Shown here: positions 377-57,286 of the stretch, one piece after another
How positions within the stretch are numbered: position 1 is the first letter of the stretch
How the letters are laid out: every line of letters begins with the position of its first letter
From: Exiguobacterium antarcticum DSM 14480
Lineage (GTDB): Bacteria; Bacillota; Bacilli; Exiguobacteriales; Exiguobacteriaceae
Reading direction: 5' to 3'
DNA: 64,000 nucleotides
NCBI RefSeq assembly: GCF_000685865.1
Contig: NZ_JMKS01000006.1
Span: 62,001 to 126,000 of the forward strand
Position numbers and translations under genes: made by a program
The notes under the pieces: model-generated
Told to the model about the DNA's origin: nothing
Database searches by the model: none
The model's input: only the letters and a program-made list of their open reading frames with translations

Positions 377-434
377 GCGAAAACCCCGGTATCGTAATTG
401 TTGTCTAGACAAACCACGATTGGAGTTTTCGCCT
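377..434 (+). promoter_or_regulatory. Long imperfect hairpin over the transposase translation start
   Basis: Two arms of nearly 30 bases (starting GCGAAAAC at 377 and ending GTTTTCGC at 432) face each other around the perfect 12-bp palindrome TTGTCTAGACAA at 401-412. The probable ribosome binding site TTGGAG (420-425) is in the right arm, so in RNA it would be paired. Such a structure can limit transposase translation, especially from transcripts entering from outside. It is present in the three full copies and absent from the deleted copy. Confidence 0.55.
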
Positions 435-1588
435 TGTCCCAACAGTTTATCAAATTAATTCTTCCGCTTCCAGCCCTTTTTCAAATCCAGATGTCGTCCG
501 ATGAAGAACCGCACGTATTTCCTGTCATTCCTGATACACATGAAATCCCTTGTCCGCTATGCGAAAAAAAGACCATCCTGCATTCGAAAAAGCGTCGTCG
601 TTTTCGACACGGTCATGCGTGGGGAGTCGGTGCCTTGTGGATCGAACTGGATGTCCCACGTCAAAGATGCCTCTCTTGTGATTTGACGTTCGTATATGAC
701 TACGGTCTCGGACTCGTCCGTACTTCTACCGAAGTGTTCCGAAAAGGCATCACAGAACGGTGCCATGGCCGGACAATTTCAGATGTTGCGCATGAATATG
801 AACTTCCTTATACGACTGTGGAACGGTGGTTTTATCAGTACGCTTCAGTGGATACAGTGGGACAGGCGACACACATCCTCGTCGATGAGTTCGCCACGAG
901 AAAAGGACACCACTATGCGACGATCGTTCTTGATGCCAAGACTGGACGTCTTCTGTCTATCGTCCCGGGCCGGGACGTATCGGCGATTACGGCTGCGCTT
1001 CAAGGTGTACTGGGAGATGTTCGTTCTGTCGTCAGTGATTTTGCACCTGCGATGGCGAAGGCAACTACTCGTGTCTTCCCGAATGCAGCGCATGTGCTGG
1101 ATCGTTTTCATCTCATCCAGTTCTTTACGGATGCTCTTCGCCGCCGGCGTCGTTTTTTGAACGAGGCAAGACGCCATCATCATGTTCGTGTGATTGATCG
1201 TGCTCTCGCTTGTCGTCCGGAAGCATTGGCTCTTGAAGATCGAGAGGTCGCCCATTCTTGTATTCTAGAAGACTCGTTTACCCGGGATCTTTATCAAGGA
1301 CTCCAACATATTCGATATGTGTTGAAAGCAACGTGCGACGGGCAGGCATGCCGAAGACTGAAAGACTGGCTGGAACGTTATCAATTTCATCCATGCGGAC
1401 CTCTTGCGAAAATCGCGAAAGCGATTCGTGGCCGTGAAGAAGCGATGCGTCAAACCATTGTATCGACACTATCGAATGGGAAAATGGAAGGGACGAACAA
1501 TAAGATTAAGCTCATTAAACGTCGTGGTTATGGCTACCGAAACCTCGAACGATTCTTTTTGAGATTGCGCCTTGAGCTTGGTCGTTAA
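434..1588 (+). CDS. ISL3-family transposase (copy 1)
   Basis: DDE transposase that mobilises the surrounding element. An N-terminal zinc ribbon is visible as CPLC and CLSC pairs about 40 residues apart. The catalytic core follows with acidic residues in HILVDEFA, in SVVSDFAPAMAKA and in SNGKMEGTNNKIK near the C-terminus. The frame is open from a TTG at 398, but the TTG at 434 (384 residues, MSQQFIKLILPLP) has TTGGAG eight bases before it and is the likelier start; an ATG at residue 20 is a third option. The length is slightly below the usual 400-430 of the family. The copies at 17697 and 56007 encode the same protein. Confidence 0.9.
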   Translation: MSQQFIKLILPLPALFQIQMSSDEEPHVFPVIPDTHEIPCPLCEKKTILHSKKRRRFRHGHAWGVGALWIELDVPRQRCLSCDLTFVYDYGLGLVRTSTEVFRKGITERCHGRTISDVAHEYELPYTTVERWFYQYASVDTVGQATHILVDEFATRKGHHYATIVLDAKTGRLLSIVPGRDVSAITAALQGVLGDVRSVVSDFAPAMAKATTRVFPNAAHVLDRFHLIQFFTDALRRRRRFLNEARRHHHVRVIDRALACRPEALALEDREVAHSCILEDSFTRDLYQGLQHIRYVLKATCDGQACRRLKDWLERYQFHPCGPLAKIAKAIRGREEAMRQTIVSTLSNGKMEGTNNKIKLIKRRGYGYRNLERFFLRLRLELGR

Positions 1589-11752: not shown

Positions 11753-11875
11753 TTTTGTTGTGACACTGTATGACGCACAGGCGAAACGTCTCGCAATTGA
11801 AGAAGTCTTATTTGATGTGAAAATATAATATCAGTCTTCCCCCCTTCAAATGAAAGGAATGTACGACTCATCAAT

Positions 11876-12376
11876 TTGATTTCGAAACAAAACAAGAGTT
11901 TCTTGTTGAAAGACATGCTTGCTCCGCTTGCAAAGGAGTTTGACTGGATTATCTTGGACTCAGTTCCTTCTATTAATGAACTGTCAAAAGTGGTCCTGTC
12001 ATGTGCGGATCATGTAGTCGTACCCTTTATGCCAAAGAAACTCGTATTCGATCAATTAGGTAGTACCATTCGCACCATTCGTCAGGTGAAAAAGTTCTAT
12101 AATGCTACTCTCGACGTAACAGGTATTATGCCAGTTGCCATCGATTTAGGTTTAAAAGGAGATCGGGAATATGTAGAGGCGATGAAGCAGTTAGCACATG
12201 CGGAGAATCTTGCCGTTCTTCCGGCCGTTCGTCGAGCTGCCTTTATTGAGAAAGCAGCAGACAATGGGAAAAGTGTTCTTTAATACAAGTCAAAGGAAGG
12301 ACTAGAACTGGCGCTACCGTTTCGAGAACTTGCACGTCACATGACCGGAGGCAATCAACATGAAGGCACGGAATAA
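11876..12376 (+). pseudogene. ParA-type partition ATPase remnant (no P-loop, internal stop)
   Basis: The frame encodes the C-terminal two thirds of a ParA/Soj ATPase. Walker B (DWIILDSVPSINELS) and the following ADHVVVPFMPKKLVF are present, but there is no Walker A motif and no plausible N-terminus, so the 5' part is lost. A TAA at 12281-12283 interrupts the frame; translation resumes in the same frame with YKSKEGLELALPFRELARHM, a good ParA C-terminus, ending at 12376 and overlapping the start of the next gene. A single C to T change (CAA to TAA) would explain the stop. The gene can no longer make a working ATPase. Confidence 0.8.
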
Positions 12377-13052
12377 ACAGATTCATAAAGTAAAGCCGCA
12401 AGAGCAACATCCTTACCGGAGTGGTTTAACCGATATCGGATCTGTTGTGCAAAAGTTACCGGTCTCGCGTGATCTTGAAAATCTTGCGGTTGAGATAAAA
12501 GAGCTAGCCAAGGTTCAAACCATCTCAGTCTTTGAAATTGGGAAACGTCTTTCAATCGCTCGATTGGAAATGCATGATAAGCAAGAATGGCGAAATTTTT
12601 TAGATGTCGTCAGCTTCTCAAATTCGCTTGCCTCACGCTACGTTAAGGCCTATGACACCTTACAACCATTTGAAGAGTCACTGGGTACCTTACCGGCTTC
12701 AAAAATCTTTGAATTGATGTATGTCGAGGATCCGGAAGATGTTGTGCTACATGGTCTTCCTGTAGAAGAGGGACGCAAGCCAATTGAGCAAGCAACCGTT
12801 CGAGAGATTCGTGCCAATCGATCTAGTACGTCTGGTGTAAAAGTACGTGCTTTTCGCCAGAAAGAGGTGGCATCGACGGTTGTCTCGGCGCGAGTGCCAA
12901 CAGAAACATCTGAACGTATTCGGATGATGGCGAGTGCGAAAGGACTCAGCATTAGTGAGTACCTCTCAAACATAATAGAAGACACGATCAGCCGTGACAT
13001 TGTGGAGAATGATCAGAATACCGATCAGCTAGAAGGGGAGGAAGAACAGTGA
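12360..13052 (+). CDS. Plasmid-type protein with DUF3102-like N-terminus and ribbon-helix-helix-like C-terminus
   Basis: A 230-residue intact protein. Residues 35-90 (KELAKVQTISVFEIGKRL, then WRNFLDVVSFSNSLASRYV) resemble phage and plasmid proteins of the DUF3102 type. Residues 172-210 (STVVSARVPTETSERIRMM, then GLSISEYLSNIIED) look like a ribbon-helix-helix DNA-binding segment. It stands between two parA-like genes and overlaps the second by GTGA, so it is probably the centromere-binding or replication-control partner of a plasmid partition locus. The ATG follows ACCGGAGG. It is the only undamaged gene of this plasmid-derived group. Functional assignment is by context. Confidence 0.65.
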   Translation: MKARNKQIHKVKPQEQHPYRSGLTDIGSVVQKLPVSRDLENLAVEIKELAKVQTISVFEIGKRLSIARLEMHDKQEWRNFLDVVSFSNSLASRYVKAYDTLQPFEESLGTLPASKIFELMYVEDPEDVVLHGLPVEEGRKPIEQATVREIRANRSSTSGVKVRAFRQKEVASTVVSARVPTETSERIRMMASAKGLSISEYLSNIIEDTISRDIVENDQNTDQLEGEEEQ

Positions 13053-13611
13053 AGAAAATCGCATTATACAATCGTAAGGGGGCGTCGGAAAATCGACGAC
13101 GACGATTAACCTTGCCCATGTATACGCACGACAAGGACTACGTGTCCTCGTCATCGATGCCGATGATCAGGCTTCAACCACAAACGATCTTGGCTTGACA
13201 GATGATTACGACGGAAAAGTACTTCTTGATTGTTTAATGGAAGAACATGATCCATTTTATGTGCCGATTGAACACGTCATTGTCACGTGTGAATATGAGA
13301 ACGGCACGATTCATTTAGTACCTACACGTCGATCAGCATCCCCAACAGGACTGACGAGTCAATTAGGATATGAGTATCGTTTAAGCGAAGAATTAGCTCG
13401 TCTAGAAGAGTTCTTTGTTATCTGTTTGATCGATTGTCCAGGATCCACTTCTGCGTTAAATCCATATGCGCGTTGCGCACTTGTCGCACAGGATCGAATC
13501 ATCATGCCGGTTCAAATGCAAAAATTTTCGATGGATGCTGTTTATACCGCTCCTGAGGAAATAGAGGAAATGAAACGTTACAAAGCAGATATCCATATTG
13601 CCGCCTTTTGA
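13049..13611 (+). pseudogene. Second ParA-type ATPase, frameshifted in the P-loop and truncated
   Basis: The GTG start overlaps the preceding stop. The product begins MKKIALYNRKG and should continue GVGKSTTTINLAHVYARQG, but a run of five G at 13078-13082 (six would be needed) puts this in another frame, destroying Walker A. The restored frame runs to 13611 and includes LRVLVIDADDQASTTNDLG, an LIDCPGSTS Walker B and MPVQMQKFSMDAVY. It then stops after KADIHIAAF, short of the normal C-terminus, where it meets a TIR-domain fragment. One lost base and a rearrangement therefore disable it. Slippage at the G run could yield some full-length N-terminus. Confidence 0.82.
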
Positions 13612-13762
13612 TTATTTAAATGGTACATTAGGAATAGAAATTTCAGATCTAAGTTCATTTGAAGAAAGTTATGACAAATTAGTACGTACAATTTGGAACG
13701 AACCTATATTACAACCTTTAAAAATTGGAAAAAAGCCAGATTTTAATGTGACGAATTGTAAT
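13598..13762 (+). pseudogene. C-terminal edge of a TIR domain protein, fragment
   Basis: The frame following the truncated parA encodes LPPFDYLNGTLGIEISDL, then FEESYDKLVRTIWNEP and LKIGKKPDF, and is cut by the IS30 end after 55 codons. The sequence matches the last strand, the FxxSFxxLVxxIxxxP helix and the GKKPxF linker that end TIR domains of bacterial TIR-effector proteins. The N-terminal TIR core and the effector part are missing. TIR proteins of this type often belong to anti-phage or inter-bacterial immunity loci, but what this one belonged to is lost. Recognition is from pattern memory only. Confidence 0.5.
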
Positions 13763-14790
13763 ATTAAGTGCAACACCTAGCTGAAAACACAAAAAAACCC
13801 ATAACGACCTCGTGTAGAATAGAGTTACCACACAAAATTCAACGGAGGATTCGTTATGAGCTATGTTCATCTTACCACATCAGAAAGAGTCAAAATAGAG
13901 ACGTATCTCGAGCTAGGTTTCTCTGTCCGAAAGATTGCTGGACGCCTGGGGCGTCAACCTTCTACGATTTCACGAGAATTGAAACGAAATCCTCACTATG
14001 ATTCTTCCCATGCCGACCAGCGTTATGTGGAGCGAAAAAAGAAGTGCGGTGCACGGACGAAGTTTACGCTCGAAAAAGGAGTCCGCATCCTCGAAAAGTT
14101 ACGGGAGACGTGGTCCCCTGAACAGATTGCCGGACGATTATTCCAAGAAGAAGGACTTTCGTTCAAGACAATTTATCGTTGGATTTATATGGGCCTCGTC
14201 GAGGCCGATTCTGGACTCCTTCGACAAAAGGGAAAGCGTCAGAAACCACGTGAGACGCGTGGACGCTTTAACGTCGGACTGCCAATCAGTAAACGTCCGT
14301 CTGACGTCAAAGGGCGCCAAACGTTCGGACATTGGGAGCTTGATACTGTTGTCTCGTGTAGAGGGAAATCCAAAGCCTGTGTCGCAACGTTCGTCGAGCG
14401 AAAGAGCCGTTTTTATCTCGCTGTACCGATGGAAGATCGGTCCGCTCAATCGATGGAGTCTGCGATTCAAGCATTGCATCTTTACTTCCCGTTGGGAACG
14501 TTCCAAACTGCGACGACAGATCGTGGAAAAGAGTTTAGCTGTCATGAACGAATTCGTGACACGTTAGGCGTACCGATGTATTTTGCGGATCCGTATTCTT
14601 CTTGGCAGCGTGGGAGTAACGAGAACGCCAATGGTCTTCTCCGTGAATTTTTCCCGAAGGGGACAGATTTCGGAAAGGTCAGTCGTTCTGAACTCGCTCA
14701 AGCGCTCGCCTGGATCAATGGGAGACCGCGAAAATGTCTCAACTGGAAAACTGCATACGAGGTCTTCACGGAAGAAGTGTTGCACTTAAT
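13763..14790 (+). mobile_element. IS30-family insertion sequence
   Basis: The element is about 1028 bp with 14-bp perfect inverted repeats, ATTAAGTGCAACAC at 13763 and its complement ending at 14790, enclosing one transposase gene. No matching 2-3 bp target duplication is visible (AAT on the left, TTG on the right), and its flanks belong to two unrelated truncated genes, a TIR-domain scrap and an MFS gene. That suggests an IS-mediated deletion rather than a simple insertion. Exact ends could shift by a base or two. Confidence 0.85.
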
Positions 14791-14794
14791 TTGA
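13856..14794 (+). CDS. IS30-family transposase
   Basis: A 312-residue transposase. The N-terminal HTH (LTTSERVKIETYLELG, then FSVRKIAGRLGRQPSTISREL) is the IS30 signature, and the DDE core is seen in FGHWELDTVVS, TATTDRGKEF and GSNENANGLLREFFPKG (the NxxNGLLRxxFPK block with the catalytic Glu). Ribosome binding site ACGGAGG lies eight bases before the ATG. It appears intact. The stop codon TGA at 14792-14794 lies just outside the inverted repeat, so it is supplied by the flanking DNA. Confidence 0.92.
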   Translation: MSYVHLTTSERVKIETYLELGFSVRKIAGRLGRQPSTISRELKRNPHYDSSHADQRYVERKKKCGARTKFTLEKGVRILEKLRETWSPEQIAGRLFQEEGLSFKTIYRWIYMGLVEADSGLLRQKGKRQKPRETRGRFNVGLPISKRPSDVKGRQTFGHWELDTVVSCRGKSKACVATFVERKSRFYLAVPMEDRSAQSMESAIQALHLYFPLGTFQTATTDRGKEFSCHERIRDTLGVPMYFADPYSSWQRGSNENANGLLREFFPKGTDFGKVSRSELAQALAWINGRPRKCLNWKTAYEVFTEEVLHLI

Positions 14795-15069
14795 CAAACC
14801 GTCATCATAATAACAGATAAGAAGCGCAACAGTTCACCTCGGAACAATGCGACCTTTCGTCCTTTGACATCGGATAGATATCCACCATGAAAGCTTGCGA
14901 TGAGTGACGCGACTATAACGATAATCATTAAAATTCCTGAAGCCTGTAATCCAAAATGATTCGAGAAATAGATAGCCATGAAGGGAAAGATGGCAATCAG
15001 GGTAACCTTTTGAAGAAAATTAATTAGAATCCTGATTTTGATATTAATATGTAATTCTCTAATCCGCAT
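14791..15069 (-). pseudogene. MFS transporter, first 93 codons, truncated by IS30
   Basis: The start region is intact: GGAGGG lies seven bases before the ATG at 15069. The product shows two to three hydrophobic segments and the loop GGYLSDVKGRKVAL, a clear MFS motif A (G-x-L-x-D-x-x-G-R-K). After VIMMTVCQ the IS30 end takes over and nothing downstream continues the gene. It was therefore a drug-exporter-like MFS gene of about 400 codons that lost three quarters of its length. It resembles, but is not a piece of, the MFS gene at 16237-17442. Confidence 0.75.
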
Positions 15070-16236: not shown

Positions 16237-17442
16237 TCATGATACATTTTTAGTTGAATTTTCAACTTTTTTGGAAAATAAATCTATACTTTTATAATAG
16301 AAAAATAAACTTGAAAAAGTAATAACAGCTATGAAAAACATACTCAGCTGATTAAAAAAGATATTTAAAAATGTACCTGTTAAGATGGGCCCAATCATGT
16401 TCCCGCTAGTTCTAAAGTTGTTAGCACCAAAATATGCACCTTTTAAATGTGCGGGAGCAATTTTATCTACCAACATACTACCTAAAGGGAGTATCATTAT
16501 TTCACCCATAGTGAAAATTATCATAAAAGCTATCAAAACTAATAAGTTTTGAGAACTGCCAAAACCTATTATTCCTATTGTGAAAAGTAATACACCATTC
16601 AACATAATTTTCAGTTCAGACTTTTCTTTTATAAATAAATTAATAAAAGGTTGTAAAACGATTACTGAAATAGCATTTACACTTAATAGTGTTGCAAAAA
16701 CTGCTTTTCCATCAGAAGACGTGAGTAACAACGGGAGTATATCTAGTTGAGAGACGCCGATGGCTACTAACGAACCAGCGATTATTAAAAATATCAAAGA
16801 AGTGTCTTTTTTTAAAAGATACAGTGTCTGAGGTAAAGATAAATTACTCACGGATAAACTTTTACTTTGAGCAGGAAGAATAATAGCAAATAAACAAGCG
16901 TAAATAAGTAAAGCGATACTTGCTATAAGAAATGAATTTGACATATTTTTTGTACTTAAAACCGCTCCGATCAAAGGACCTATTGCTGCTCCTATATTAG
17001 CGGCAGTGTACCGATATTTATAAAATTTTAATTTTTTTTCATTGGGTAGATTGTCAGAAAGTATAGCCTGACTCAAAGGTTCATATAAAGAGCGGAAGAG
17101 GCCATTGAGCATATTTAAGAGAATTATAATGTACAAATTTAATGTCAAGTAAAAAGTAAAAAAAACAATACTCCATAGTACCAAGGTAATAATTGTAACG
17201 GATTTTCTCCCGAGTTTATCTGACAAGTAACTTCCTATAAATCCTCCGAATATACCCAGAAACCATCCCGACCCTAAAACAAATCCTATTTGAACTGAAC
17301 TCAAACCAGCACTTGATGCAAGATATAAGGTAAGAAAAGGAAGAGACATGAATGTAATTGCCCTTACCAACACTGTACCTATAATTACTAGCCATGCGAT
17401 TAAAAGGCTATCATCAGTCTTTTTGAAATTAAAATCAAGCAT
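16237..17442 (-). CDS. MFS exporter of the AT-rich island
   Basis: A 401-residue membrane protein with about 12 hydrophobic segments. Motif A is visible as GSYLSDKLGRKSVTI and the motif C region as YTAANIGAAIGPLIGAVL, typical of proton-driven drug exporters. Codon use is very AT-rich, like the flavoprotein and ATP-grasp genes on the far side of the ISL3 element and unlike the flanking chromosome. The ATG at 17442 follows AAAGG by eight bases; upstream in-frame ATG and GTG codons overlap that site. It was originally divergent from the flavoprotein gene over a short intergenic region; it probably exports the product of those enzymes (inference). Confidence 0.85.
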   Translation of the reverse strand: MLDFNFKKTDDSLLIAWLVIIGTVLVRAITFMSLPFLTLYLASSAGLSSVQIGFVLGSGWFLGIFGGFIGSYLSDKLGRKSVTIITLVLWSIVFFTFYLTLNLYIIILLNMLNGLFRSLYEPLSQAILSDNLPNEKKLKFYKYRYTAANIGAAIGPLIGAVLSTKNMSNSFLIASIALLIYACLFAIILPAQSKSLSVSNLSLPQTLYLLKKDTSLIFLIIAGSLVAIGVSQLDILPLLLTSSDGKAVFATLLSVNAISVIVLQPFINLFIKEKSELKIMLNGVLLFTIGIIGFGSSQNLLVLIAFMIIFTMGEIMILPLGSMLVDKIAPAHLKGAYFGANNFRTSGNMIGPILTGTFLNIFFNQLSMFFIAVITFSSLFFYYKSIDLFSKKVENSTKNVS

Positions 17443-17571
17443 AGACATCACCTTTCAATTTTAGTATTCCAAAAAATAAATTTAACATAATAAGGAATAA
17501 AAGTAATGGGTATTTATTACTATTTTTATTTTTTATAAATTGATCTTAAATGTTTAAAATGGTTGAAAGGT

Positions 17572-18881
17572 GGCTCATCACCATAAGGTGTGGTTGACAC
17601 ATAAAATCCATCGGATTTTAAATCGAACATAGAAAAAAAGCGAAAACCCCGGTATCGTAATTGTTGTCTAGACAAACCACGATTGGAGTTTTCGCCTTGT
17701 CCCAACAGTTTATCAAATTAATTCTTCCGCTTCCAGCCCTTTTTCAAATCCAGATGTCGTCCGATGAAGAACCGCACGTATTTCCTGTCATTCCTGATAC
17801 ACATGAAATCCCTTGTCCGCTATGCGAAAAAAAGACCATCCTGCATTCGAAAAAGCGTCGTCGTTTTCGACACGGTCATGCGTGGGGAGTCGGTGCCTTG
17901 TGGATCGAACTGGATGTCCCACGTCAAAGATGCCTCTCTTGTGATTTGACGTTCGTATATGACTACGGTCTCGGACTCGTCCGTACTTCTACCGAAGTGT
18001 TCCGAAAAGGCATCACAGAACGGTGCCATGGCCGGACAATTTCAGATGTTGCGCATGAATATGAACTTCCTTATACGACTGTGGAACGGTGGTTTTATCA
18101 GTACGCTTCAGTGGATACAGTGGGACAGGCGACACACATCCTCGTCGATGAGTTCGCCACGAGAAAAGGACACCACTATGCGACGATCGTTCTTGATGCC
18201 AAGACTGGACGTCTTCTGTCTATCGTCCCGGGCCGGGACGTATCGGCGATTACGGCTGCGCTTCAAGGTGTACTGGGAGATGTTCGTTCTGTCGTCAGTG
18301 ATTTTGCACCTGCGATGGCGAAGGCAACTACTCGTGTCTTCCCGAATGCAGCGCATGTGCTGGATCGTTTTCATCTCATCCAGTTCTTTACGGATGCTCT
18401 TCGCCGCCGGCGTCGTTTTTTGAACGAGGCAAGACGCCATCATCATGTTCGTGTGATTGATCGTGCTCTCGCTTGTCGTCCGGAAGCATTGGCTCTTGAA
18501 GATCGAGAGGTCGCCCATTCTTGTATTCTAGAAGACTCGTTTACCCGGGATCTTTATCAAGGACTCCAACATATTCGATATGTGTTGAAAGCAACGTGCG
18601 ACGGGCAGGCATGCCGAAGACTGAAAGACTGGCTGGAACGTTATCAATTTCATCCATGCGGACCTCTTGCGAAAATCGCGAAAGCGATTCGTGGCCGTGA
18701 AGAAGCGATGCGTCAAACCATTGTATCGACACTATCGAATGGGAAAATGGAAGGGACGAACAATAAGATTAAGCTCATTAAACGTCGTGGTTATGGCTAC
18801 CGAAACCTCGAACGATTCTTTTTGAGATTGCGCCTTGAGCTTGGTCGTTAAAATAGCAACCACGTGTTATGGTGATGAGCC
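17572..18881 (+). mobile_element. ISL3-family insertion sequence, full copy 2
   Basis: The 1310-bp element has the same 25-bp terminal repeats as copy 1 and a perfect 8-bp target duplication, TGAAAGGT, at 17564-17571 and 18882-18889. It landed in the AT-rich intergenic region between the divergent MFS exporter and flavoprotein genes, separating whatever shared control region they had. With the element removed the two start codons would be about 200 bases apart. Confidence 0.95.
17697..18851 (+). CDS. ISL3-family transposase (copy 2)
   Basis: The 384-residue product is identical to that of copy 1, with the CPLC/CLSC zinc ribbon and the three acidic catalytic residues in HILVDEFA, SVVSDFAP and NGKMEGTNNK. 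The TTG start at 17697 follows TTGGAG inside the long leader hairpin, as in copy 1. Its GC content and codon use contrast sharply with the AT-rich genes on either side, confirming that it entered the island later. Read-through from it would run into the flavoprotein gene 106 bases downstream. Confidence 0.9.
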   Translation: MSQQFIKLILPLPALFQIQMSSDEEPHVFPVIPDTHEIPCPLCEKKTILHSKKRRRFRHGHAWGVGALWIELDVPRQRCLSCDLTFVYDYGLGLVRTSTEVFRKGITERCHGRTISDVAHEYELPYTTVERWFYQYASVDTVGQATHILVDEFATRKGHHYATIVLDAKTGRLLSIVPGRDVSAITAALQGVLGDVRSVVSDFAPAMAKATTRVFPNAAHVLDRFHLIQFFTDALRRRRRFLNEARRHHHVRVIDRALACRPEALALEDREVAHSCILEDSFTRDLYQGLQHIRYVLKATCDGQACRRLKDWLERYQFHPCGPLAKIAKAIRGREEAMRQTIVSTLSNGKMEGTNNKIKLIKRRGYGYRNLERFFLRLRLELGR

Positions 18882-18956
18882 TGAAAGGTATTTATTTTTA
18901 CTTTTATTGGATGTATATTCAAAAAGTATTTAAAAATAGAGAGGAAGAGTTAATTA

Positions 18957-20621
18957 ATGGTTATTATTGGTTCTGGTATTACAGGTTTAGTGGCTGCTTA
19001 TTATGCATGTAAGGAAAATAAAAAGGTTAGTTTAGTTACAAAAAATTATTATTCAAATAATGAATACAGTTGGAAGAGTAACGGAGGATGTAGCTGGAAA
19101 ACTCATGCGTTTAATGTTGCTTTAGGAGAAGATAGAGTAGAAGATCATATAGTTGACACTATGATTGGTTCTGATTATCTAGCTAATGAAGAATTAGTAG
19201 AAGTACTTTGCAGTGAAGCTCCGCTTATCGTTGATTTTTTAGAAGAAATTGGTGTGAATTTAGATAGAAACGAAGATGGAACCATACAAAAAAAACCATT
19301 TGGAGGAAACGGGATCTCAAGAGCTGTTTTTGTAGAAGACAGATTAGGATATTACATTGTAAAAGCATTAAATAATCAAATGAACAATCTGATAACTACT
19401 GGACAACTGACAATTTTAGAAGGTTTACGAGTAGTAGAAGTTGAGACAAATATTGATGAAGAAAACAAGCATTTATTGACTTTTATCAATGTGAGTACTA
19501 ATGAGCTACTTGAAATCAAAACGCATACAATCATTTTTGCTGATGGTGGTGGAGCAAGTATGTATGCACCGACAGCATCTTCAGAAGATAAAACTTGTGA
19601 TGGCCTAAATCTTGCTTACGAGATGGGACTTGATTTAATTGACATGGAATTTGTACAGTTTCATCCAACGGGATTAGTATCAGACAATCCGATATACAAT
19701 GGTTCATTATTTGAAGAATCTTTACGATTTTCAGGTGCAAAGTTAAAGAATAAAAATGGAGAGCGTTTTATGTTTTCTTATAATCCTTTAGGAGAATGTG
19801 CGACACGTGATAAAGTATCCAGAGGTATATACATGGAAATTATGAAGGGCAATGGATTCGAAAATGGATCAGTAGAATTAGATTTGTCTGATTGCTATGA
19901 AGAAATAATCGATTCATATCCTGCTCTAAAAGAGCGATTAGTTCAGGCGGGATATGATATCGAAGAAAACAGAAGTATTTTCATAAAGCCAACTGCTCAC
20001 TTTATGATGGGTGGTGTAAAAATCAATTCGAAATGTGAAACAAATATTTCTGGTATTTATTTCGCTGGTGAAAGTGCAGGTGGTGTTCATGGTGCAAATA
20101 GATTAGGTGGTAACGGACTCACTGAAGCATTAGTGTTTGGTAAAATAGCTGGGACAGAAGCCCTTAATTATACTTTAAGTTTGATTAGCAATACAGATAT
20201 GGAAGAAATTATGTTATCAAAAAGAACGGTTAACTATAAAATTAACGGTCTGGTAAAAGGCGATCTATATTCTGATTTTAAACAATTAAAAGAAGTTATG
20301 TATAAAAATGTTGGGCCAGTTAGGACTAAAAAAGGCTTAGAAGATAGTTTAGCATACTTAAAATCATTGAAAGCACATAGCTATGACTTAACTAGTCTTC
20401 CTACTAAGAATTCATATCAAATATATTTAGACTATAAAAATTTGTTATTTACCTCTGAATTGATTGTTACAGCAGCACTTTTAAGAAATGAATCTAGAGG
20501 ATCTCATTATAGAGAAGACTATCTAGATAAATTGGATGTAAATAAAAATTACATCTTAAAAAAAGAAAAGAATCAAGTGTGTACCTCTGTAATTGATACA
20601 CCAAAACTACAACTTAATTAA
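18957..20621 (+). CDS. FAD-dependent oxidoreductase of the L-aspartate oxidase/fumarate reductase family
   Basis: A 554-residue flavoprotein. The FAD Rossmann motif VIIGSGITGLVAAYYA occupies residues 2-17. FHPTGL (235-240), ESLRFSGAKL, RDKVSRGIYMEI with the catalytic Arg near 284, AHFMMGGV (about 347-354) and VHGANRLGGNGLTEALVFG match the SdhA/NadB family, which oxidises or reduces a dicarboxylate or aspartate. No nadA or nadC adjoins it, so NAD synthesis is unlikely. An in-frame TAA directly before the ATG at 18957 fixes the start. It is 24 bases from an ATP-grasp gene, strongly AT-rich, and probably prepares an unsaturated or keto/imino acid for ligation (inference). Promoter may be disturbed by the ISL3 insertion upstream. 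Confidence 0.85.
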   Translation: MVIIGSGITGLVAAYYACKENKKVSLVTKNYYSNNEYSWKSNGGCSWKTHAFNVALGEDRVEDHIVDTMIGSDYLANEELVEVLCSEAPLIVDFLEEIGVNLDRNEDGTIQKKPFGGNGISRAVFVEDRLGYYIVKALNNQMNNLITTGQLTILEGLRVVEVETNIDEENKHLLTFINVSTNELLEIKTHTIIFADGGGASMYAPTASSEDKTCDGLNLAYEMGLDLIDMEFVQFHPTGLVSDNPIYNGSLFEESLRFSGAKLKNKNGERFMFSYNPLGECATRDKVSRGIYMEIMKGNGFENGSVELDLSDCYEEIIDSYPALKERLVQAGYDIEENRSIFIKPTAHFMMGGVKINSKCETNISGIYFAGESAGGVHGANRLGGNGLTEALVFGKIAGTEALNYTLSLISNTDMEEIMLSKRTVNYKINGLVKGDLYSDFKQLKEVMYKNVGPVRTKKGLEDSLAYLKSLKAHSYDLTSLPTKNSYQIYLDYKNLLFTSELIVTAALLRNESRGSHYREDYLDKLDVNKNYILKKEKNQVCTSVIDTPKLQLN

Positions 20622-20645
20622 TATTATCAATAGGGAGTGTTAAAT

Positions 20646-21920
20646 GTGAAAAAAGCTTTTGCTGTAATGGGATATAATAATACAAGAATAAACGATGTAA
20701 ACACAATAAAAAATATCGCATGTAGTGTGTATGATGCGGACATTATTTTATGTAAAGATATTATTACTGAAGAAGATAAAAATTTGATTTCAAACACTAT
20801 TGAAGTTGATTTACTAGGAAATTCTATCGGTCCTATTACGAGTTACCTTAAAAAAAATGATTTTGAACTTATTGGTGTACTTCCGTTTTCTGACCGAGGA
20901 GTTCCTTTAGGTTCATTATTAGCTCAACATTTCTCATTACCAGGGGACCAAGGTGGGGAAATGGCAGAAGCCTGCATAAAAAAATCAAAATTTAGAAATA
21001 TTGAAAGTCAAACTGAATTGCCAAATTGGTATAAAAAAGTTGATTATCTATATACGACAACTAGAGAAGGTATTGAATCTTTTTATGAAAAACATAAGGT
21101 GTTTTTTATCAAACCTAACTCTGAAGGAAATAGTAGAGGTTGTATGATGATTAGCAGTATCGAAGATTTAACCTATTGGTTAGATGTTTTCCATGAATAT
21201 GTCCCTCATGGAGTTCTGTGTGAAGAATTAATCGATGGTCTGCACGAATATAGTTATGACGCTGTAGGAAGTTATGAGTGGATAACAGAAAAAAAGACAA
21301 CAGATGGGCGCTTTAAAGGAGAATATAATCACATTTCACCTGCTCCATTGTCAAAAGAAATGTACAATAGACTTATTGAAGCAGGTAGAGCAGTAAAGAA
21401 TATGATCGGATCAGTAAATGGGGCTAATCATCATGAATTTTTCATTAATAAAGACTATACGATTTCTTGTGTAGAACCTAACCGTAGACCTGCCGGAGCT
21501 AAAGTGTTCTTATTTGGCGAACAATTGTACGATTCTTTAGAAAGCTCATATGAAGAGTGGATGAGAAGCCTTTCTAAAGTTGAGGATAATACTAGTAAAG
21601 AAAATGGTTCTACAAACCTTCTAAATGAGAATGTTGTTGGATTCAGATGGTTCAGAGCAGATAAGGAAATGATAATCCCAGAAACTAACTTTGAAAATTT
21701 GAATACCTATATTAAAGAAAAATACAATACAAAGATTATTGATTTATTTTTCAATGTAAAATCAGGCGATAAAATTACTAACAATATCCAGGATAATTCT
21801 CATTTTTTGGGCCACGTATATGCTAAAGCTACAAGTTATTCTGAATTGATGGACATGCTTGATGATATTGAAAAATATGTTGTAAACCATTTATGCAATG
21901 TGGCAGTAAGTAAATATTAA
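20646..21920 (+). CDS. ATP-grasp ligase
   Basis: A 424-residue cytosolic ATP-grasp enzyme, a fold that joins a carboxylate to an amine through an acyl phosphate. The central ATP-grasp lobes are seen in HKVFFIKPNSEGNSRGCMM (Lys binding ATP phosphates and glycine-rich loop), LCEELIDGLHEYSYDAVGS, NHHEFFIN and CVEPNRRPAG (the E-x-N-x-R-x-x-G Mg2+ and phosphate site). It resembles L-amino acid ligases of the BacD/carnosine-synthase type. The GTG at 20646 follows AGGGAG by eight bases; an upstream GTG overlaps that site. It follows the flavoprotein gene after 24 bases and ends before a strong terminator. Product unknown. Confidence 0.85.
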   Translation: MKKAFAVMGYNNTRINDVNTIKNIACSVYDADIILCKDIITEEDKNLISNTIEVDLLGNSIGPITSYLKKNDFELIGVLPFSDRGVPLGSLLAQHFSLPGDQGGEMAEACIKKSKFRNIESQTELPNWYKKVDYLYTTTREGIESFYEKHKVFFIKPNSEGNSRGCMMISSIEDLTYWLDVFHEYVPHGVLCEELIDGLHEYSYDAVGSYEWITEKKTTDGRFKGEYNHISPAPLSKEMYNRLIEAGRAVKNMIGSVNGANHHEFFINKDYTISCVEPNRRPAGAKVFLFGEQLYDSLESSYEEWMRSLSKVEDNTSKENGSTNLLNENVVGFRWFRADKEMIIPETNFENLNTYIKEKYNTKIIDLFFNVKSGDKITNNIQDNSHFLGHVYAKATSYSELMDMLDDIEKYVVNHLCNVAVSKY

Positions 21921-22025: not shown

Positions 22026-22059
22026 AAAGCGGATCACTTCGATGTGATCCGCTTTTTTT
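22026..22059 (+). terminator. Terminator of the flavoprotein-ATP-grasp operon
   Basis: AAAGCGGATCAC pairs with GTGATCCGCTTT around the loop TTCGAT, followed by a T run. It lies 105 bases after the ATP-grasp stop codon and has no other candidate gene upstream. Confidence 0.9.
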
Positions 22060-22215: not shown

Positions 22216-22629
22216 GGAATATTTCATTTGATTACTGATCATGGAATGAACATTTCTATCTCCACATCTCGTATCTAGATTTATAAGTCTATTGGGTCAA
22301 TGAAATGTCCTGTTCAGAATCGAGCGCAATCGAAAGTGATCAAGATGATCAAGGGAATTGGCTAATGAAAGTGAACGGTTCGGTTTAATTTTTCCGATGG
22401 GAAAAGACAGCCGTTGATTTATTAAAATAATACAGGGCCGGCAGAAAACTATATACTAAGGGTAAAATTTTTTGTGGCGGCAGTATTGAAGAGCCGCGAC
22501 ATTTTAAAAGAATTATTCACTCCTACTTTCGCGGCAAACCGTATTGTCAGATGTACTGCTCATGTTTTAAACATCAATCTCATTACATGGGACATGGCTC
22601 CCAAAAAACGATCTCATCTAAAAAGTTGA
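22216..22629 (+). pseudogene. Decayed citrate synthase gene (ghost)
   Basis: Three pieces in order match the citrate synthase C-terminal half: FHLITDHGMNIS near 22222-22257 (family pattern LxxHADHExNxS), then after a TAG, YKSIGSMKCP and RAQSKVIKMIKGIG at about 22280-22363 (family AIGSLKGPLHGGANExVxxML), and finally, in another frame, FVAAVLKSRDILKELFTPTF, then AANRIV and TAHVLN at 22471-22577 (family LFTPxFAxSRxxGWxAH). Several stops and at least one frameshift separate them and the GGAN active-site stretch is eroded. The 22061-22215 part shows nothing recognisable. It is an old remnant with no coding capacity. Confidence 0.55.
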
Positions 22630-22730
22630 TATGCGTATATGTATAATACTCCGCTTTTTAAATTTCCAATCGATTACGACGAATCAATTTACGAGAAGGA
22701 AGAAACGAACAAAATGCAATCAAACTGAGA

Positions 22731-22757
22731 CAAGGACGTTCTGTCCTTGCTTTTTTT
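22731..22757 (+). terminator. Short Rho-independent terminator
   Basis: CAAGGAC, loop GTTCT, GTCCTTG, then seven T. It closes the decayed stretch before the open frame at 22821. Confidence 0.7.
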
Positions 22758-22820
22758 ACATCCGATGTCAATATTTCGTATACTCGAAACATACTAAGAA
22801 ATGGAAAGGGTTGATGACTT

Positions 22821-23195
22821 ATGATAATTGCTTTTATAAAAAGTGGCATATCAGATTTTTCTTTAATAGTGAATTCGCGAGAAAAAAAGTTTGACGTCAC
22901 TGGATTCGGGACGTGGAAATGGATTTATGAAAAGTTGGAGATTGAGCACTTCCTATACGCCAACCGAATCATTATGCTTGATTGTGGTTTGATTCGATAC
23001 TTGTCCAACGGTAGAACATCAATGGTCAATCTGATTGGTCGATTGATTCTATCTCAAGTAATAAAATCCGTCGTGCAGCCTGAATGTGTAGAAAGATTCC
23101 ATCGTTATACAGAGACGGTCTCGGTACAAGACGAACATTTTAAAGAGGTTTTACCGTTTGGAGAACGAATTTTAGTGAACGAGGAGGTAGTTTAA
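22821..23195 (+). CDS. Hypothetical protein translationally coupled to PhzF
   Basis: A 124-residue open frame with no recognised family. It begins MIIAFIKSGISDFSLI after a modest AAAGGG site, has no signal peptide and ends LPFGERILVNEEVV. Its stop codon overlaps the ATG of the PhzF gene (TAATG), and the PhzF ribosome binding site (GAGGAGG) lies within its last codons, which argues that at least the end of this frame is translated. An internal ATG at 22972 could be an alternative start. It might be the truncated tail of a larger gene, since decayed sequence lies directly upstream. Confidence 0.45.
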   Translation: MIIAFIKSGISDFSLIVNSREKKFDVTGFGTWKWIYEKLEIEHFLYANRIIMLDCGLIRYLSNGRTSMVNLIGRLILSQVIKSVVQPECVERFHRYTETVSVQDEHFKEVLPFGERILVNEEVV

Positions 23196-24070
23196 TGAAC
23201 GTAACCGTCCTCCATTATGATGTCTTCACGGAAACGCCCGGTCATGGTAACCCAGCCGGGGTCGTCCTACAAGCAGAACATCTGACGCATCAACAGATGC
23301 AATTGATTGCTCGTTTTGCTGGATTCACTGAGACGACATTTGTACAACGTTCGATCAATGCGACGTGGAATATGCGTTATTTCGCGCCTGGCAAGGAGAT
23401 GAATCTTTGTGGTCACGGGACGATTGCTGCATTGACGGCACTAGCACAAGCTAGTCAGTTACCGCAGAAATTCACGATCGACACACAAGCCGGTATTCTA
23501 AAAGGAAAACAGGCAGCTGTAAAAACCCGATTCCGGTTGCGGCAAGGGAATCCACAAATCGTTCCGTTCCAAGGAGCAGTCCGTCCCATACTCGCAACCA
23601 TCGGGTTAGACATCAAGCATCTCGATGATCGTCTACCAATTGTCTATGGCAGCACAGGAAACTGGACACTCATTTTACCCATCCGCCGGTTGATAGATTT
23701 CAAGAGGATGCGGCCAGACAATGAACGTTTCCAGCAGGTATTGACGGCATTTCCTACTGCATCCATACATCCGATTTGTCTCGAGACCTATCAATCCGTT
23801 CATCTGCATGGTCGACACTTTTCCGCATCCGGTGCTGGAACGGTTGAAGACCCTGTCACTGGGACATCAAGTGGCGTGATGGGGGTCTATCATCGCCTGT
23901 TTATTAATCCGCTGTCTACGGAGACAATCAGAATTGAACAAGGACACGAGATGAATCGCCCCGGCACCGTCGACATTCTTGTTAGCGGAACAGAATCGGA
24001 CCCTTCACAGTGGCAGGTCGAAATGGAAGGAGGGAGTATTTTTGTAGGGGCACGATCTATTACGATATAG
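23195..24070 (+). CDS. PhzF-family isomerase
   Basis: A 291-residue protein of the phenazine-biosynthesis PhzF/diaminopimelate epimerase fold. The N-terminus VLHYDVFTETPGHGNPAGVVL and the FTETTFVQ stretch carry the conserved catalytic Glu region, FAPGKEMNLCGHGTIAAL is the first diagnostic motif, and the second lobe shows EDPVTGTSSGVMG. Bacterial homologues outside phenazine clusters have largely unknown substrates; no other phenazine gene is here. The ATG overlaps the preceding stop. The C-terminus (SIFVGARSI) is complete. Base composition is near that of the core chromosome, not of the AT-rich island. Confidence 0.88.
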   Translation: MNVTVLHYDVFTETPGHGNPAGVVLQAEHLTHQQMQLIARFAGFTETTFVQRSINATWNMRYFAPGKEMNLCGHGTIAALTALAQASQLPQKFTIDTQAGILKGKQAAVKTRFRLRQGNPQIVPFQGAVRPILATIGLDIKHLDDRLPIVYGSTGNWTLILPIRRLIDFKRMRPDNERFQQVLTAFPTASIHPICLETYQSVHLHGRHFSASGAGTVEDPVTGTSSGVMGVYHRLFINPLSTETIRIEQGHEMNRPGTVDILVSGTESDPSQWQVEMEGGSIFVGARSITI

Positions 24071-24112
24071 AGAGACGGTCCGCTCATCACTTCGATTGTC
24101 ATCTTCACTGAT

Positions 24113-24289
24113 TTATTGAAAGCAGAGGATAGAGATGGTCGATAGTGTATTGTGAATGGTCTTTAGGTAAACATCTTCAGACATATATCGATCATTCACA
24201 CCATATTGAACTAATGATGAACCGTCTAGTTGAAAGATGTAGAGCATAGCACTTTGTTTGGTAAATCCAAAGAATGGTGCAGTATTTTC
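24113..24289 (-). pseudogene. Possible C-terminal gene remnant
   Basis: On the minus strand 58 codons are open between two stops, reading PFFGFTKQSAMLYIF, then QLDGSSLVQYGVNDRYMSED and YLKTIHNTLSTISI. The amino acid pattern looks like real protein, but there is no start with a ribosome binding site; an ATG at 24247 would give 44 residues. The family is not recognised. The rest of the 24071-24489 gap shows nothing further except the leader of the GHKL gene. Confidence 0.3.
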
Positions 24290-24489
24290 TTATTATACAT
24301 AGTCATAAGATCAATGCTGAGAAACTTGAATGTTTATCCATTTAAAAGTAGCTCTATTGTATTCGGAAAACCTTAGTGTTTTGAACATCCGTTCGCAGTC
24401 GTTTCAGGAAATCACGTTCTCTAACACTTATCGTTCTTTAAGAGAAAATATTTCGAAATCTGAGAAAAAACAAAGGAGGGTGAAACACA

Positions 24490-25392
24490 TTGAAAAAGTT
24501 CGACCTGAATATTGAGCAGGTACTCGAAAACTGGGAAGTCTATCATGCTCTTCGAGAAATTATCGCCAATGCATTAGACGAACAGGTCCTTACACGATCA
24601 AAAGATATCCGTATCGAATGTGATTCGGATGGCAATTGGCGCATTCGTGATTATGGCCGAGGCTTGCAGTACGTGCACTTCACGCAAAATGAGAACCAGG
24701 AGAAGTTGAACCATCCGAATCTAATCGGGCGTTTTGGTGTCGGGTTGAAGGATGCTATGGCGACGTTTGATCGTCATGATGTCGGTGTTGAGATTCTATC
24801 GAGACACGGGCGGTTCACCTTAGGAAAAAGCAATAAACATGCGTTCGAGGATGTCATGACGCTCCATGCCTATATCGAGCCATCTCTCGATGATGCGTTC
24901 GAGGGAACGGAATTCATCCTCTCGAATATATCCGAAGAGGATATCCAGAAAGCGAAGCGACTCTTTCTACTCTTCAGTGATGAGCAGGTACTTTCCACCG
25001 TTCAATACGGTCAAATCTTAGAAAAGCATGGTCATACGGCGAATATCTACATCAATGGCGTGAAGGTCGCAGCGGAGGAGGACTTCCTCTTCTCTTACAA
25101 CATCACCTCATTGACGAAGGGGATGAAGAAGGAGTTGAATCGAGAACGTACGAACGTCGGACGTACCGCCTATTCGTCTCGTGTGAAGCAGATACTCCTT
25201 GATAACAAGGAACCTCGTACGACCCGTCTTCTAGTAGAATCATTGAATCGGTTCACGGAAGGAGAGCTTCCAGTTGAACTCACATGGAAGGACGTGGCTA
25301 TCCATTCCTGTAAGCTATTGAACATGCTTGAGGATGTCGTGTTCATGACACCCTCCCAAAATAAATCGAATATGATGTACTCTTTTAAGTAG
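24490..25392 (+). CDS. Orphan GHKL ATPase-domain protein
   Basis: A 300-residue protein with a GHKL (Hsp90/MutL/histidine-kinase type) ATP-binding fold. The N box is ALREIIANALDEQ (residues 19-31), the G1 box IRDYGRGLQ (about 54-62), the G2 box GRFGVGLKDAMATF (about 79-92), and FEGTEFIL gives the GT motif. No dimerisation or histidine is present, so it is not a sensor kinase. The TTG start follows AAAGGAGGGTGA. The end (TPSQNKSNMMYSFK) is abrupt, and homologues I recall seem to continue, so it may be truncated. Its neighbours are debris; function unknown. Similar ATPases occur in phage-defence and phage loci. Confidence 0.7.
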   Translation: MKKFDLNIEQVLENWEVYHALREIIANALDEQVLTRSKDIRIECDSDGNWRIRDYGRGLQYVHFTQNENQEKLNHPNLIGRFGVGLKDAMATFDRHDVGVEILSRHGRFTLGKSNKHAFEDVMTLHAYIEPSLDDAFEGTEFILSNISEEDIQKAKRLFLLFSDEQVLSTVQYGQILEKHGHTANIYINGVKVAAEEDFLFSYNITSLTKGMKKELNRERTNVGRTAYSSRVKQILLDNKEPRTTRLLVESLNRFTEGELPVELTWKDVAIHSCKLLNMLEDVVFMTPSQNKSNMMYSFK

Positions 25393-39616: not shown

Positions 39617-40724
39617 GGCTCATCACCATAACACATGGTTGCTATTTTAACGACCAAGCTCAAGGCGCAATCTCAAAAAGAATCGCTCGAGGTTTCGATA
39701 GCCATAACCACGACGTTTAATGAGCTTAATCTTATTGTTCGTCCCTTCCATTTTCCCATTCGATAGTGTCGATACAATGGTGTGACGCATCGTTTCTTCA
39801 CGGCCACGAATCGCTTTCGCGATTTTCGCAAGAGGTCCGCACGGATGGAACTGATAACGTTCCAGCCAGTCTTTCAGTCTTCGGCATGCCTGCCCGTCGC
39901 ACGTTGCTTTCAACACATATCGGATATGTTGGAGTCCTTGATAAAGATCCCGGGTAAACGAGTCTTCTAGAATACAAGAATGGGCGGCCTCTCGGTCTTC
40001 AAGAGCCAATGCTTCCGTTCGACAAGCGAGAGCACGATCGATCACACGAACATGATGATGGCGTCTTGCCTCGTTCAAAAAACGACGCCGGCGGCGAAGA
40101 GCATCGGTAAAGAACTGGATGAGATGAAAACGGTCCAGTACATGTGCTGCATTCGGGAAGACACGAGTAGTTGCCTTCGCCATCGCAGGTGCAAAATCAC
40201 TGACGACAGAACGAACATCTCCCAGTACACCTTGAAGAGCAGCCGTAATCGCCGATACGTCCCGGCCCGGGACGATAGACAGAAGACGTCCAGTCTTGGC
40301 ATCAAGAACGATCGTCGCATAGTGGTGTCCTTTTCTCGTGGCGAACTCATCGACGAGGATGTGTGTCGCATGTCCCACTGGATCCACTGAAGCGTACTGA
40401 TAAAACCACCGTTCCACAGTCGTATACGGAAGTTCATATTCATGCGCAACATCTGAAATTGTGCGGCCATGGCACCGTTCTGTGATGCCTTTTCGGAACA
40501 CTTCGGTAGAAGTACGGACGAGTCCGAGACCGTAGTCATATACGAACGTCAAATCACAAGAGAGGCGTCTTTGACGTGGGACATCCAGTTCGATCCACAA
40601 GGCACCGACTCCCCACGCATGACCGTATCGAAAACGACGACGCTTTTTTGAATGCAGGATGGTCTTTTTTTCGCATAGCGGACAAGGGATTTCATGTGTC
40701 AACCACACCTTATGGTGATGATCC
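39617..40724 (-). mobile_element. ISL3-family element, deletion derivative (copy 3)
   Basis: Both terminal repeats are present, but the element is 1108 bp, exactly 202 bp shorter than the full copies. The missing piece spans the region between two ATGTGT repeats: one near the start of the gene and one beside the promoter, so recombination between the short repeats removed the leader hairpin, -10 region and the first 44 codons. The outermost right repeat has GATCC instead of GAGCC, several base changes separate it from the other copies, and no 8-bp target duplication is seen (AATAATAA versus TAAAAAAT). It is an older, non-autonomous copy. Confidence 0.9.
39647..40708 (-). pseudogene. ISL3 transposase lacking its N-terminus
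   Basis: The remaining frame is joined to codons created from the terminal repeat (GTG TGG TTG ACA CAT, then EIPCPLCEKK) and stays open to the usual C-terminus GLRLELGR-like end. It lacks the normal start, ribosome binding site and the -10 box; the only in-frame start upstream is a GTG within the repeat. One zinc-ribbon cysteine is changed (RQRRLSC instead of RQRCLSC), and other substitutions include VDPVGHA. The catalytic residues persist. Expression and activity are unlikely, but its ends could be moved in trans by the full copies. Confidence 0.85.
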
Positions 40725-55976: not shown

Positions 55977-57286
55977 GGCTCATCACCATAACACGTGGTT
56001 GCTATTTTAACGACCAAGCTCAAGGCGCAATCTCAAAAAGAATCGTTCGAGGTTTCGGTAGCCATAACCACGACGTTTAATGAGCTTAATCTTATTGTTC
56101 GTCCCTTCCATTTTCCCATTCGATAGTGTCGATACAATGGTTTGACGCATCGCTTCTTCACGGCCACGAATCGCTTTCGCGATTTTCGCAAGAGGTCCGC
56201 ATGGATGAAATTGATAACGTTCCAGCCAGTCTTTCAGTCTTCGGCATGCCTGCCCGTCGCACGTTGCTTTCAACACATATCGAATATGTTGGAGTCCTTG
56301 ATAAAGATCCCGGGTAAACGAGTCTTCTAGAATACAAGAATGGGCGACCTCTCGATCTTCAAGAGCCAATGCTTCCGGACGACAAGCGAGAGCACGATCA
56401 ATCACACGAACATGATGATGGCGTCTTGCCTCGTTCAAAAAACGACGCCGGCGGCGAAGAGCATCCGTAAAGAACTGGATGAGATGAAAACGATCCAGCA
56501 CATGCGCTGCATTCGGGAAGACACGAGTAGTTGCCTTCGCCATCGCAGGTGCAAAATCACTGACGACAGAACGAACATCTCCCAGTACACCTTGAAGCGC
56601 AGCCGTAATCGCCGATACGTCCCGGCCCGGGACGATAGACAGAAGACGTCCAGTCTTGGCATCAAGAACGATCGTCGCATAGTGGTGTCCTTTTCTCGTG
56701 GCGAACTCATCGACGAGGATGTGTGTCGCCTGTCCCACTGTATCCACTGAAGCGTACTGATAAAACCACCGTTCCACAGTCGTATAAGGAAGTTCATATT
56801 CATGCGCAACATCTGAAATTGTCCGGCCATGGCACCGTTCTGTGATGCCTTTTCGGAACACTTCGGTAGAAGTACGGACGAGTCCGAGACCGTAGTCATA
56901 TACGAACGTCAAATCACAAGAGAGGCATCTTTGACGTGGGACATCCAGTTCGATCCACAAGGCACCGACTCCCCACGCATGACCGTGTCGAAAACGACGA
57001 CGCTTTTTCGAATGCAGGATGGTCTTTTTTTCGCATAGCGGACAAGGGATTTCATGTGTATCAGGAATGACAGGAAATACGTGCGGTTCTTCATCGGACG
57101 ACATCTGGATTTGAAAAAGGGCTGGAAGCGGAAGAATTAATTTGATAAACTGTTGGGACAAGGCGAAAACTCCAATCGTGGTTTGTCTAGACAACAATTA
57201 CGATACCGGGGTTTTCGCTTTTTTTCTATGTTCGATTTAAAATCCGATGGATTTTATGTGTCAACCACACCTTATGGTGATGAGCC
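55977..57286 (-). mobile_element. ISL3-family insertion sequence, full copy 4
   Basis: The 1310-bp copy has the same ends and length as copies 1 and 2 but lies in the opposite orientation. Its 8-bp target duplication AATAAAAA (55969-55976 and 57287-57294) is perfect. It sits between a terminator and the start of the gene at 57373, 37 bases before that gene's -10-like box, and may have replaced upstream promoter elements. Confidence 0.95.
56007..57161 (-). CDS. ISL3-family transposase (copy 4)
   Basis: A 384-residue product identical to those of copies 1 and 2, with the same zinc ribbon (CPLC/CLSC), catalytic Asp in HILVDEFA and SVVSDFAP, and Glu in NGKMEGTNNK. The TTG start at 57161 lies downstream of the leader hairpin (57218-57161). 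Because it faces leftwards, it does not read into the gene at 57373. Copies 1 and 2 in direct and this one in inverted orientation provide substrates for deletion or inversion of the DNA between them. Confidence 0.9.
   Translation of the reverse strand: MSQQFIKLILPLPALFQIQMSSDEEPHVFPVIPDTHEIPCPLCEKKTILHSKKRRRFRHGHAWGVGALWIELDVPRQRCLSCDLTFVYDYGLGLVRTSTEVFRKGITERCHGRTISDVAHEYELPYTTVERWFYQYASVDTVGQATHILVDEFATRKGHHYATIVLDAKTGRLLSIVPGRDVSAITAALQGVLGDVRSVVSDFAPAMAKATTRVFPNAAHVLDRFHLIQFFTDALRRRRRFLNEARRHHHVRVIDRALACRPEALALEDREVAHSCILEDSFTRDLYQGLQHIRYVLKATCDGQACRRLKDWLERYQFHPCGPLAKIAKAIRGREEAMRQTIVSTLSNGKMEGTNNKIKLIKRRGYGYRNLERFFLRLRLELGR

Follow-up and report, generated by a model that had tools for sequence, protein, structure and literature searches.

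A candidate pathway for a peptide-like metabolite in an AT-rich gene block of a plasmid-like Exiguobacterium replicon

Three AT-rich genes, encoding a major facilitator superfamily (MFS) exporter and, divergently, a flavoprotein and an ATP-grasp ligase, lie together in a 64,000-nucleotide stretch of the Exiguobacterium antarcticum DSM 14480 genome. This stretch, hereafter the window, covers bases 62001-126000 of contig C6 (244,180 bp), the genome being of 3.2 Mb in seven contigs. The best explanation of the block, to which we give a probability of about 0.45, is a mini-pathway gained by horizontal transfer, whose two enzymes, a redox enzyme of dicarboxylate type and an amino-acid ligase, would yield a peptide-like product for the MFS protein to export. 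Coordinates are reported in Table 1.

The flavoprotein stop and the ligase start are separated by exactly 24 bases, and each of the three genes is preceded by a ribosome-binding site. A terminator scan between the two plus-strand genes gave none, and a single, strong terminator closes the unit. The gene order, the spacing and the lone terminator described in a first-pass annotation of this DNA are all borne out. The same annotation had described the block as far more AT-rich than the flanking genes, and this held as well: GC content of the three genes is 0.315-0.324, and their GC at third codon positions (GC3; 0.20, 0.23 and 0.25) ranks second to fourth lowest among the 122 open reading frames (ORFs) of the contig (mean 0.538, standard deviation 0.104). 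For comparison, 36 ORFs on two other contigs of the genome (C3 and C5) gave a GC3 of 0.497 (standard deviation 0.049). The AT-richness of the three genes is beyond chance. The lowest GC content seen for any ORF of the contig, 0.28, is that of another gene (L117:8469-11234, or G000:C6:134469-137234); its 922 amino acid product combines an N-terminal PHP domain with an SMC/AAA ATPase region, and may correspond to a defence-type gene.

NCBIfam profiles ranked the flavoprotein as TfrA (409 bits), then SdhA/FrdA (351 bits), then NadB (317 bits), all under their cut-offs. In a tree of 101 relatives it fell on the SdhA/FrdA side, beside three TfrA-like proteins of other Bacilli (Shimodaira-Hasegawa-like approximate likelihood ratio test, SH-aLRT, 96), a position that is approximate because its branch is long (2.26). 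A 100% SH-aLRT split separated it from NadB, and forcing it into NadB cost 88 log units and was rejected (approximately unbiased, AU, test, p = 0.00075). The structure model was confident (pLDDT 87, pTM 0.90), with E. coli FrdA as the best structural match (TM 0.86). By alignment, the catalytic quartet is retained (H236, R284, H348 and R382). NadB Glu121, which contacts the amino group of the substrate aspartate, is found in the NadB rows compared, and aligns to F115 of the flavoprotein, as in SdhA/FrdA. The position of the histidine that binds flavin adenine dinucleotide (FAD) covalently is occupied by E36, and the TfrA-like rows also lack this histidine; E253, at the T259 position, is otherwise found in TfrA-like rows only. 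A loop next to a conserved arginine is altered, from RGEGG to RFSGA. E121 is named as a NadB active-site residue by works entered in the reference lists of PMC4699246 and PMC10354440. The host encodes its own sdhA, plus a nadB-type gene adjoining nadA on chromosomal contig C3.

Residues, tree and model, taken with the host's own nadB and sdhA, point to fumarate/succinate-type chemistry with non-covalent FAD as the most likely activity, rather than aspartate oxidation. We rejected a NadB identity on the tree, the AU test, F115 and the separate nadB/nadA of the host. Of the earlier label, "SdhA/NadB-type", the first half stands, extended to FrdA and TfrA, and the second does not, the protein grouping apart from genuine NadB; the oxidation of aspartate-like acids attributed to it is not upheld, phenylalanine standing where NadB has the residue for the amino group.

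The nearest flavoproteins in 399 Bacilli genomes were at most 38% identical, and the contexts read were Fe-S (iron-sulfur)/fumarase operons or nad operons. In a scan of genome contigs, the best relatives among the matches listed were 30-36% identical, and closer ones were possibly missed. The soluble TfrA/FrdA-like fumarate reductase proteins of Bacilli (L106, L107, L108; NCBIfam PRK06263, TfrA) share with the flavoprotein the fold, the FAD domain, the catalytic His and Arg, the Phe at NadB E121, the lack of a covalent-FAD His and the Glu at T259. They are only 36-38% identical to it, however, and their genes adjoin those of an Fe-S subunit and a two-part fumarase, whereas no Fe-S partner was found among the neighbouring genes here, and ligase and exporter stand in place of the Fe-S and fumarase genes. 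NadB is similar in superfamily, non-covalent FAD and catalytic His/Arg, but differs in its E121, in a clade that leaves the flavoprotein outside, and in being encoded elsewhere in this genome.

Taken as a single sequence, the ligase scored under the gathering score of two Pfam families, ATP-grasp_4 (24.2 of 27 bits) and LAL_C2 (18.1 of 29.4 bits), the weak LAL_C2 match lying towards the C-terminus, as expected. Of the relatives found, those nearest to it are encoded by the middle ATP-grasp genes of three-ATP-grasp operons, one on a Streptomyces plasmid (30% identity) and one on a Burkholderia plasmid (27%). A profile built from the ligase and these two proteins, run against solved ATP-grasp proteins, placed BacD first (5.7e-9) and the L-amino acid ligase (LAL) BL00235 next (3.6e-7), ahead of D-Ala-D-Ala ligases. 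With the LAL_C2-bearing homologue L087, from a large genome, added, the value reached 8.8e-26; part of this gain comes from the added sequence itself, and the figure was not relied on. The motif EPNRRPAG retains the active-site acidic, Asn and Arg residues (E264, E277, N279 and R281), and A285 aligns with W332 of BacD, its gate residue. Work on BacD W332A reportedly points to a wider donor pocket, and A285 suggests a roomier donor pocket in the ligase as well. Sequence comparison thus supports a BacD/LAL-like ligase at the level of a superfamily branch: the "BacD-type" assignment of the first-pass annotation is kept as a remote likeness, and not as strict membership. A phage origin of the ligase was considered and rejected, searches of phage records and of IMG/VR having turned up nothing related.

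Gene sets that join a LAL-type ligase to an MFS exporter are already known, as for bacilysin. The block resembles BacD (3vmm), BL00235 (3vot) and the bacilysin pathway in its ATP-grasp ligase, its matching active-site pattern and this pairing with an exporter. The similarity to BacD is however remote, not significant by single sequence, and W332 is replaced by Ala; unlike in bacilysin synthesis, no anticapsin genes (bacA, bacB, bacC, bacF, bacG) stand beside the ligase, the immediate neighbours scanned being insertion sequence (IS) elements, an MFS remnant, a DUF3102 protein, an unknown protein and PhzF. The three-ATP-grasp operons mentioned above (L084 and L085, plasmids of Streptomyces cyaneofuscatus and Burkholderia stagnalis) provide the closest relative as their middle protein and have an MFS gene nearby, but contain two more ATP-grasp genes, a 2Fe-2S ferredoxin and an iron-containing redox enzyme, and no FrdA-like flavoprotein. 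Dapdiamide-type pathways, which make fumaramoyl-diaminopropionyl dipeptides with the ATP-grasp ligase DdaF, would be an example of joining a dicarboxylate to an amino acid; their redox chemistry and gene content differ from those of the block.

The two plasmid operons are syntenic (L084:6402-12564 and L085:7516-12572), with genes for a 2Fe-2S protein and a haem-oxygenase-like iron enzyme and three consecutive ATP-grasp genes, 51-61% identical between the two plasmids, and give the impression of a biosynthetic cluster, as yet unstudied, that has spread across phyla. Another cluster (L111:5425-18001, G063:C10), in a 7.3-Mb genome, encodes a cysteine-synthase-like/ATP-grasp fusion with a LAL_C2 domain, together with a threonine-aldolase-like protein, an acyltransferase-like protein and a large synthase-like gene.

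The exporter called by the first-pass annotation is, from its sequence matches, an MFS protein of the efflux type. Its best curated profile is YdeE (NCBIfam PRK10054; 5e-33, 114.6 bits for a cut-off of 582), a match taken only as a hint to function, and the nearest solved structure is NorA. YdeE is listed among proteins of dipeptide and arabinose export (PMC9600279). The paralogues native to the genus share only about 33% identity with it, which is consistent with a foreign origin of the gene, and on this ground a host-native origin was rejected.

The contig itself is plasmid-like, and the evidence supports a foreign origin of the block as a horizontally acquired cargo cassette. Megablast matches of the region in plasmid records were to Exiguobacterium plasmids only. 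The left backbone (window positions 11761-13608, with ParA-like and DUF3102 genes) and the right flank (22565-25360) are common to a 105-kb contig of a sister species (G037:C2), at 89-98%. The corresponding interval of that contig has different cargo and none of the flavoprotein, ligase and MFS genes. As the flanks are common to both contigs and the block is in only one, the part of this plasmid-like replicon that holds the block is a variable cargo region. No close plasmid relatives of the block were found by megablast or tblastn. The second parA of the window is truncated exactly at the limit of homology to the sister contig (13608); the sister copy is intact and is followed by a ParB-like gene, which is missing at that place in the window. 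On the sister contig, the cargo (L149-L151, about 45-73 kb) includes LD-carboxypeptidase/MccF-like, phosphotransferase-like, acetyltransferase and other MFS genes, and the interval between the partition genes and the PhzF gene is a cargo hot spot. Related IS30 copies also lie on the sister contig.

While the first-pass annotation was right about the presence of the three genes, it overlooked a complete ISL3-family element between the MFS gene and the flavoprotein. The element is bounded by inverted repeats GGCTCATCACCATAA...TTATGGTGATGAGCC and then by a perfect 8-bp target duplication, TGAAAGGT. Four ISL3 copies were found in the window (398-1585, 17661-18848, 39650-40708 and 56010-57197), three full and 100% identical, one partial (97.6%). 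The insertion is thus recent, and the element has recently been active on the replicon. Before it, the divergent MFS and flavoprotein genes would have been about 0.2 kb apart. Both remain whole; the element divides the upstream region shared by the exporter and the enzymes, and may have altered or silenced their expression in this strain.

Table 1. Features of the block and its surroundings, in window positions
Feature	Position	Strand	Details
MFS efflux transporter gene	16237..17442	-	start is the Shine-Dalgarno (SD)-supported ATG; ORF tool begins at 17451
FrdA/TfrA-like flavoprotein gene	18957..20621	+	FAD_binding_2 and Succ_DH_flav_C
ATP-grasp ligase gene, remote BacD/L-amino acid ligase relative	20646..21920	+	GTG start, SD GGGAG
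Intrinsic terminator closing the flavoprotein-ligase unit	22026..22055	+	12 bp, 6-nt loop, T tail
Complete ISL3-family insertion sequence, 1,310 bp	17572..18881	+	in the divergent intergenic region; transposase 17661-18851, GC 0.49
Target-site duplication TGAAAGGT, left copy	17564..17571	.	8 bp
Target-site duplication TGAAAGGT, right copy	18882..18889	.	8 bp, perfect copy of the left one
IS30-family transposase	13856..14794	+	element truncates an unrelated MFS gene; 13740-15069 covers both
MdtG-like MFS gene, 5' remnant cut by the IS30 element	14794..15069	-	separate from the trio
Broken parA-like gene at the left cargo edge	13055..13611	+	frameshift in P-loop, truncated C-terminus
Right flank: 124-aa unknown protein and PhzF-family isomerase	22565..24070	+	89% to the sister contig; right cargo edge

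We propose the following scheme for the mini-pathway. The flavoprotein, with non-covalent FAD, would add or remove hydrogen across C2-C3 of a C4-dicarboxylate of succinate/fumarate type, free or as an acyl group. As no Fe-S partner gene is linked, it would be re-oxidised by O2, fumarate or a diffusible carrier. The LAL-type enzyme would activate a carboxylate as acyl phosphate with ATP and couple it to an amino acid, giving a small peptide-like compound, for example a fumaryl- or succinyl-amino acid or a modified aminoacyl-amino acid, which the divergent MFS protein would pump out. Every step from substrate to product is one that we infer; gene order, spacing, composition, cargo position, ISL3 insertion and family assignments are observed. 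In its narrowest form, that of a minimal and undescribed three-gene pathway, in which an FrdA-like flavoprotein and a divergent amino-acid ligase, on a plasmid of one Exiguobacterium species, yield an exported dicarboxylate-containing peptide-like metabolite, the proposal is more tentative.

The genes may also be unrelated cargo, that is a stand-alone soluble fumarate reductase used for redox balancing or as an anaerobic electron sink, an orphan ligase and a drug-type exporter, gathered in one AT-rich fragment. This would agree with the residues and tree position of the flavoprotein, which are those of ordinary FrdA/TfrA enzymes, with the failure to find the trio co-occurring elsewhere, and with the presence, on this and the sister contig alike, of further cargo genes without relation to the block and of IS elements. 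It is the main rival of the mini-pathway, and we hold it to be the less likely of the two. Against it stand the gap of only 24 nt between flavoprotein and ligase genes that match in composition and share one terminator, and the absence from this locus of the Fe-S or membrane partner gene of the nearest FrdA/TfrA relatives. Shared composition, operon spacing and the missing Fe-S partner favour a joint function.

If the genes do act together, the order of the two enzymes could be reversed, with the ligase making a dipeptide or succinyl-amino acid whose dicarboxylate part the flavoprotein then desaturates or reduces before export. The same gene anatomy fits, the RFSGA loop could suit a larger substrate, and A285 in place of W332 suggests a roomier donor pocket; but on a long branch such a change of the loop could also be neutral, and we regard this version as improbable. 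Lower still we place the version in which a NadB-type oxidase of L-aspartate, or an aspartate-like acid, makes an imino acid that a BacD-type ligase couples to an amino acid. A BacD-like ligase is indeed present, and NadB profiles match the flavoprotein at E = 3e-94, as part of the superfamily. The lower NadB bit score, the AU test, the lack of E121 and the host's own nadB/nadA all oppose it, however, and iminoaspartate is unstable, hence probably unsuited as a ligase substrate. Two further readings were rejected: a ribosomally synthesised and post-translationally modified peptide, for whose precursor the small ORFs of the block gave no convincing candidate with a ribosome-binding site, and anti-phage defence, with no PADLOC match.

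Several observations weigh against the proposed mini-pathway. The nearest flavoproteins elsewhere lie in Fe-S/fumarase respiratory operons and not in biosynthetic clusters, and MFS family membership tells little about substrate. The ligase assignment depends on remote profile scores, its single sequence finding nothing significant in the PDB, and a single-sequence AlphaFold model had a pLDDT of 38 and was not used. Searches for the ligase covered the family (38 genomes), Bacilli (399), Bacillota (398, overlapping) and samples from the phyla of a Promicromonospora (246), a Magnetococcales (249) and a Phormidium (136) genome, about 1,150 other genomes overall. They yielded no close homologue; the only matches were the genome itself and one 27% relative, whose locus, in a large genome, looks biosynthetic. 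Apart from the present genome, none in these samples was found to combine even two of the three genes, and a related ligase was absent at about 80 flavoprotein loci. The conserved co-occurrence of the three families, put forward in the first-pass annotation as a check, was thus not seen in the genomes sampled. The trio is known from one genome only, and its absence from the samples is compatible with presence elsewhere; the ligase family being very rare, the missing co-occurrence leaves the pathway unproven, not refuted. A literature search for a flavoprotein/ATP-grasp/MFS pathway returned nothing relevant.

As it stands, the block is a rare plasmid cassette, of plausible but unproven function. 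If the proposed mini-pathway is true, it would be a very small natural-product pathway, pairing respiratory-type fumarate chemistry with a stand-alone amide ligase, and would offer a tractable case of the recruitment of an FrdA-type enzyme to biosynthesis, with an accessible new metabolite.

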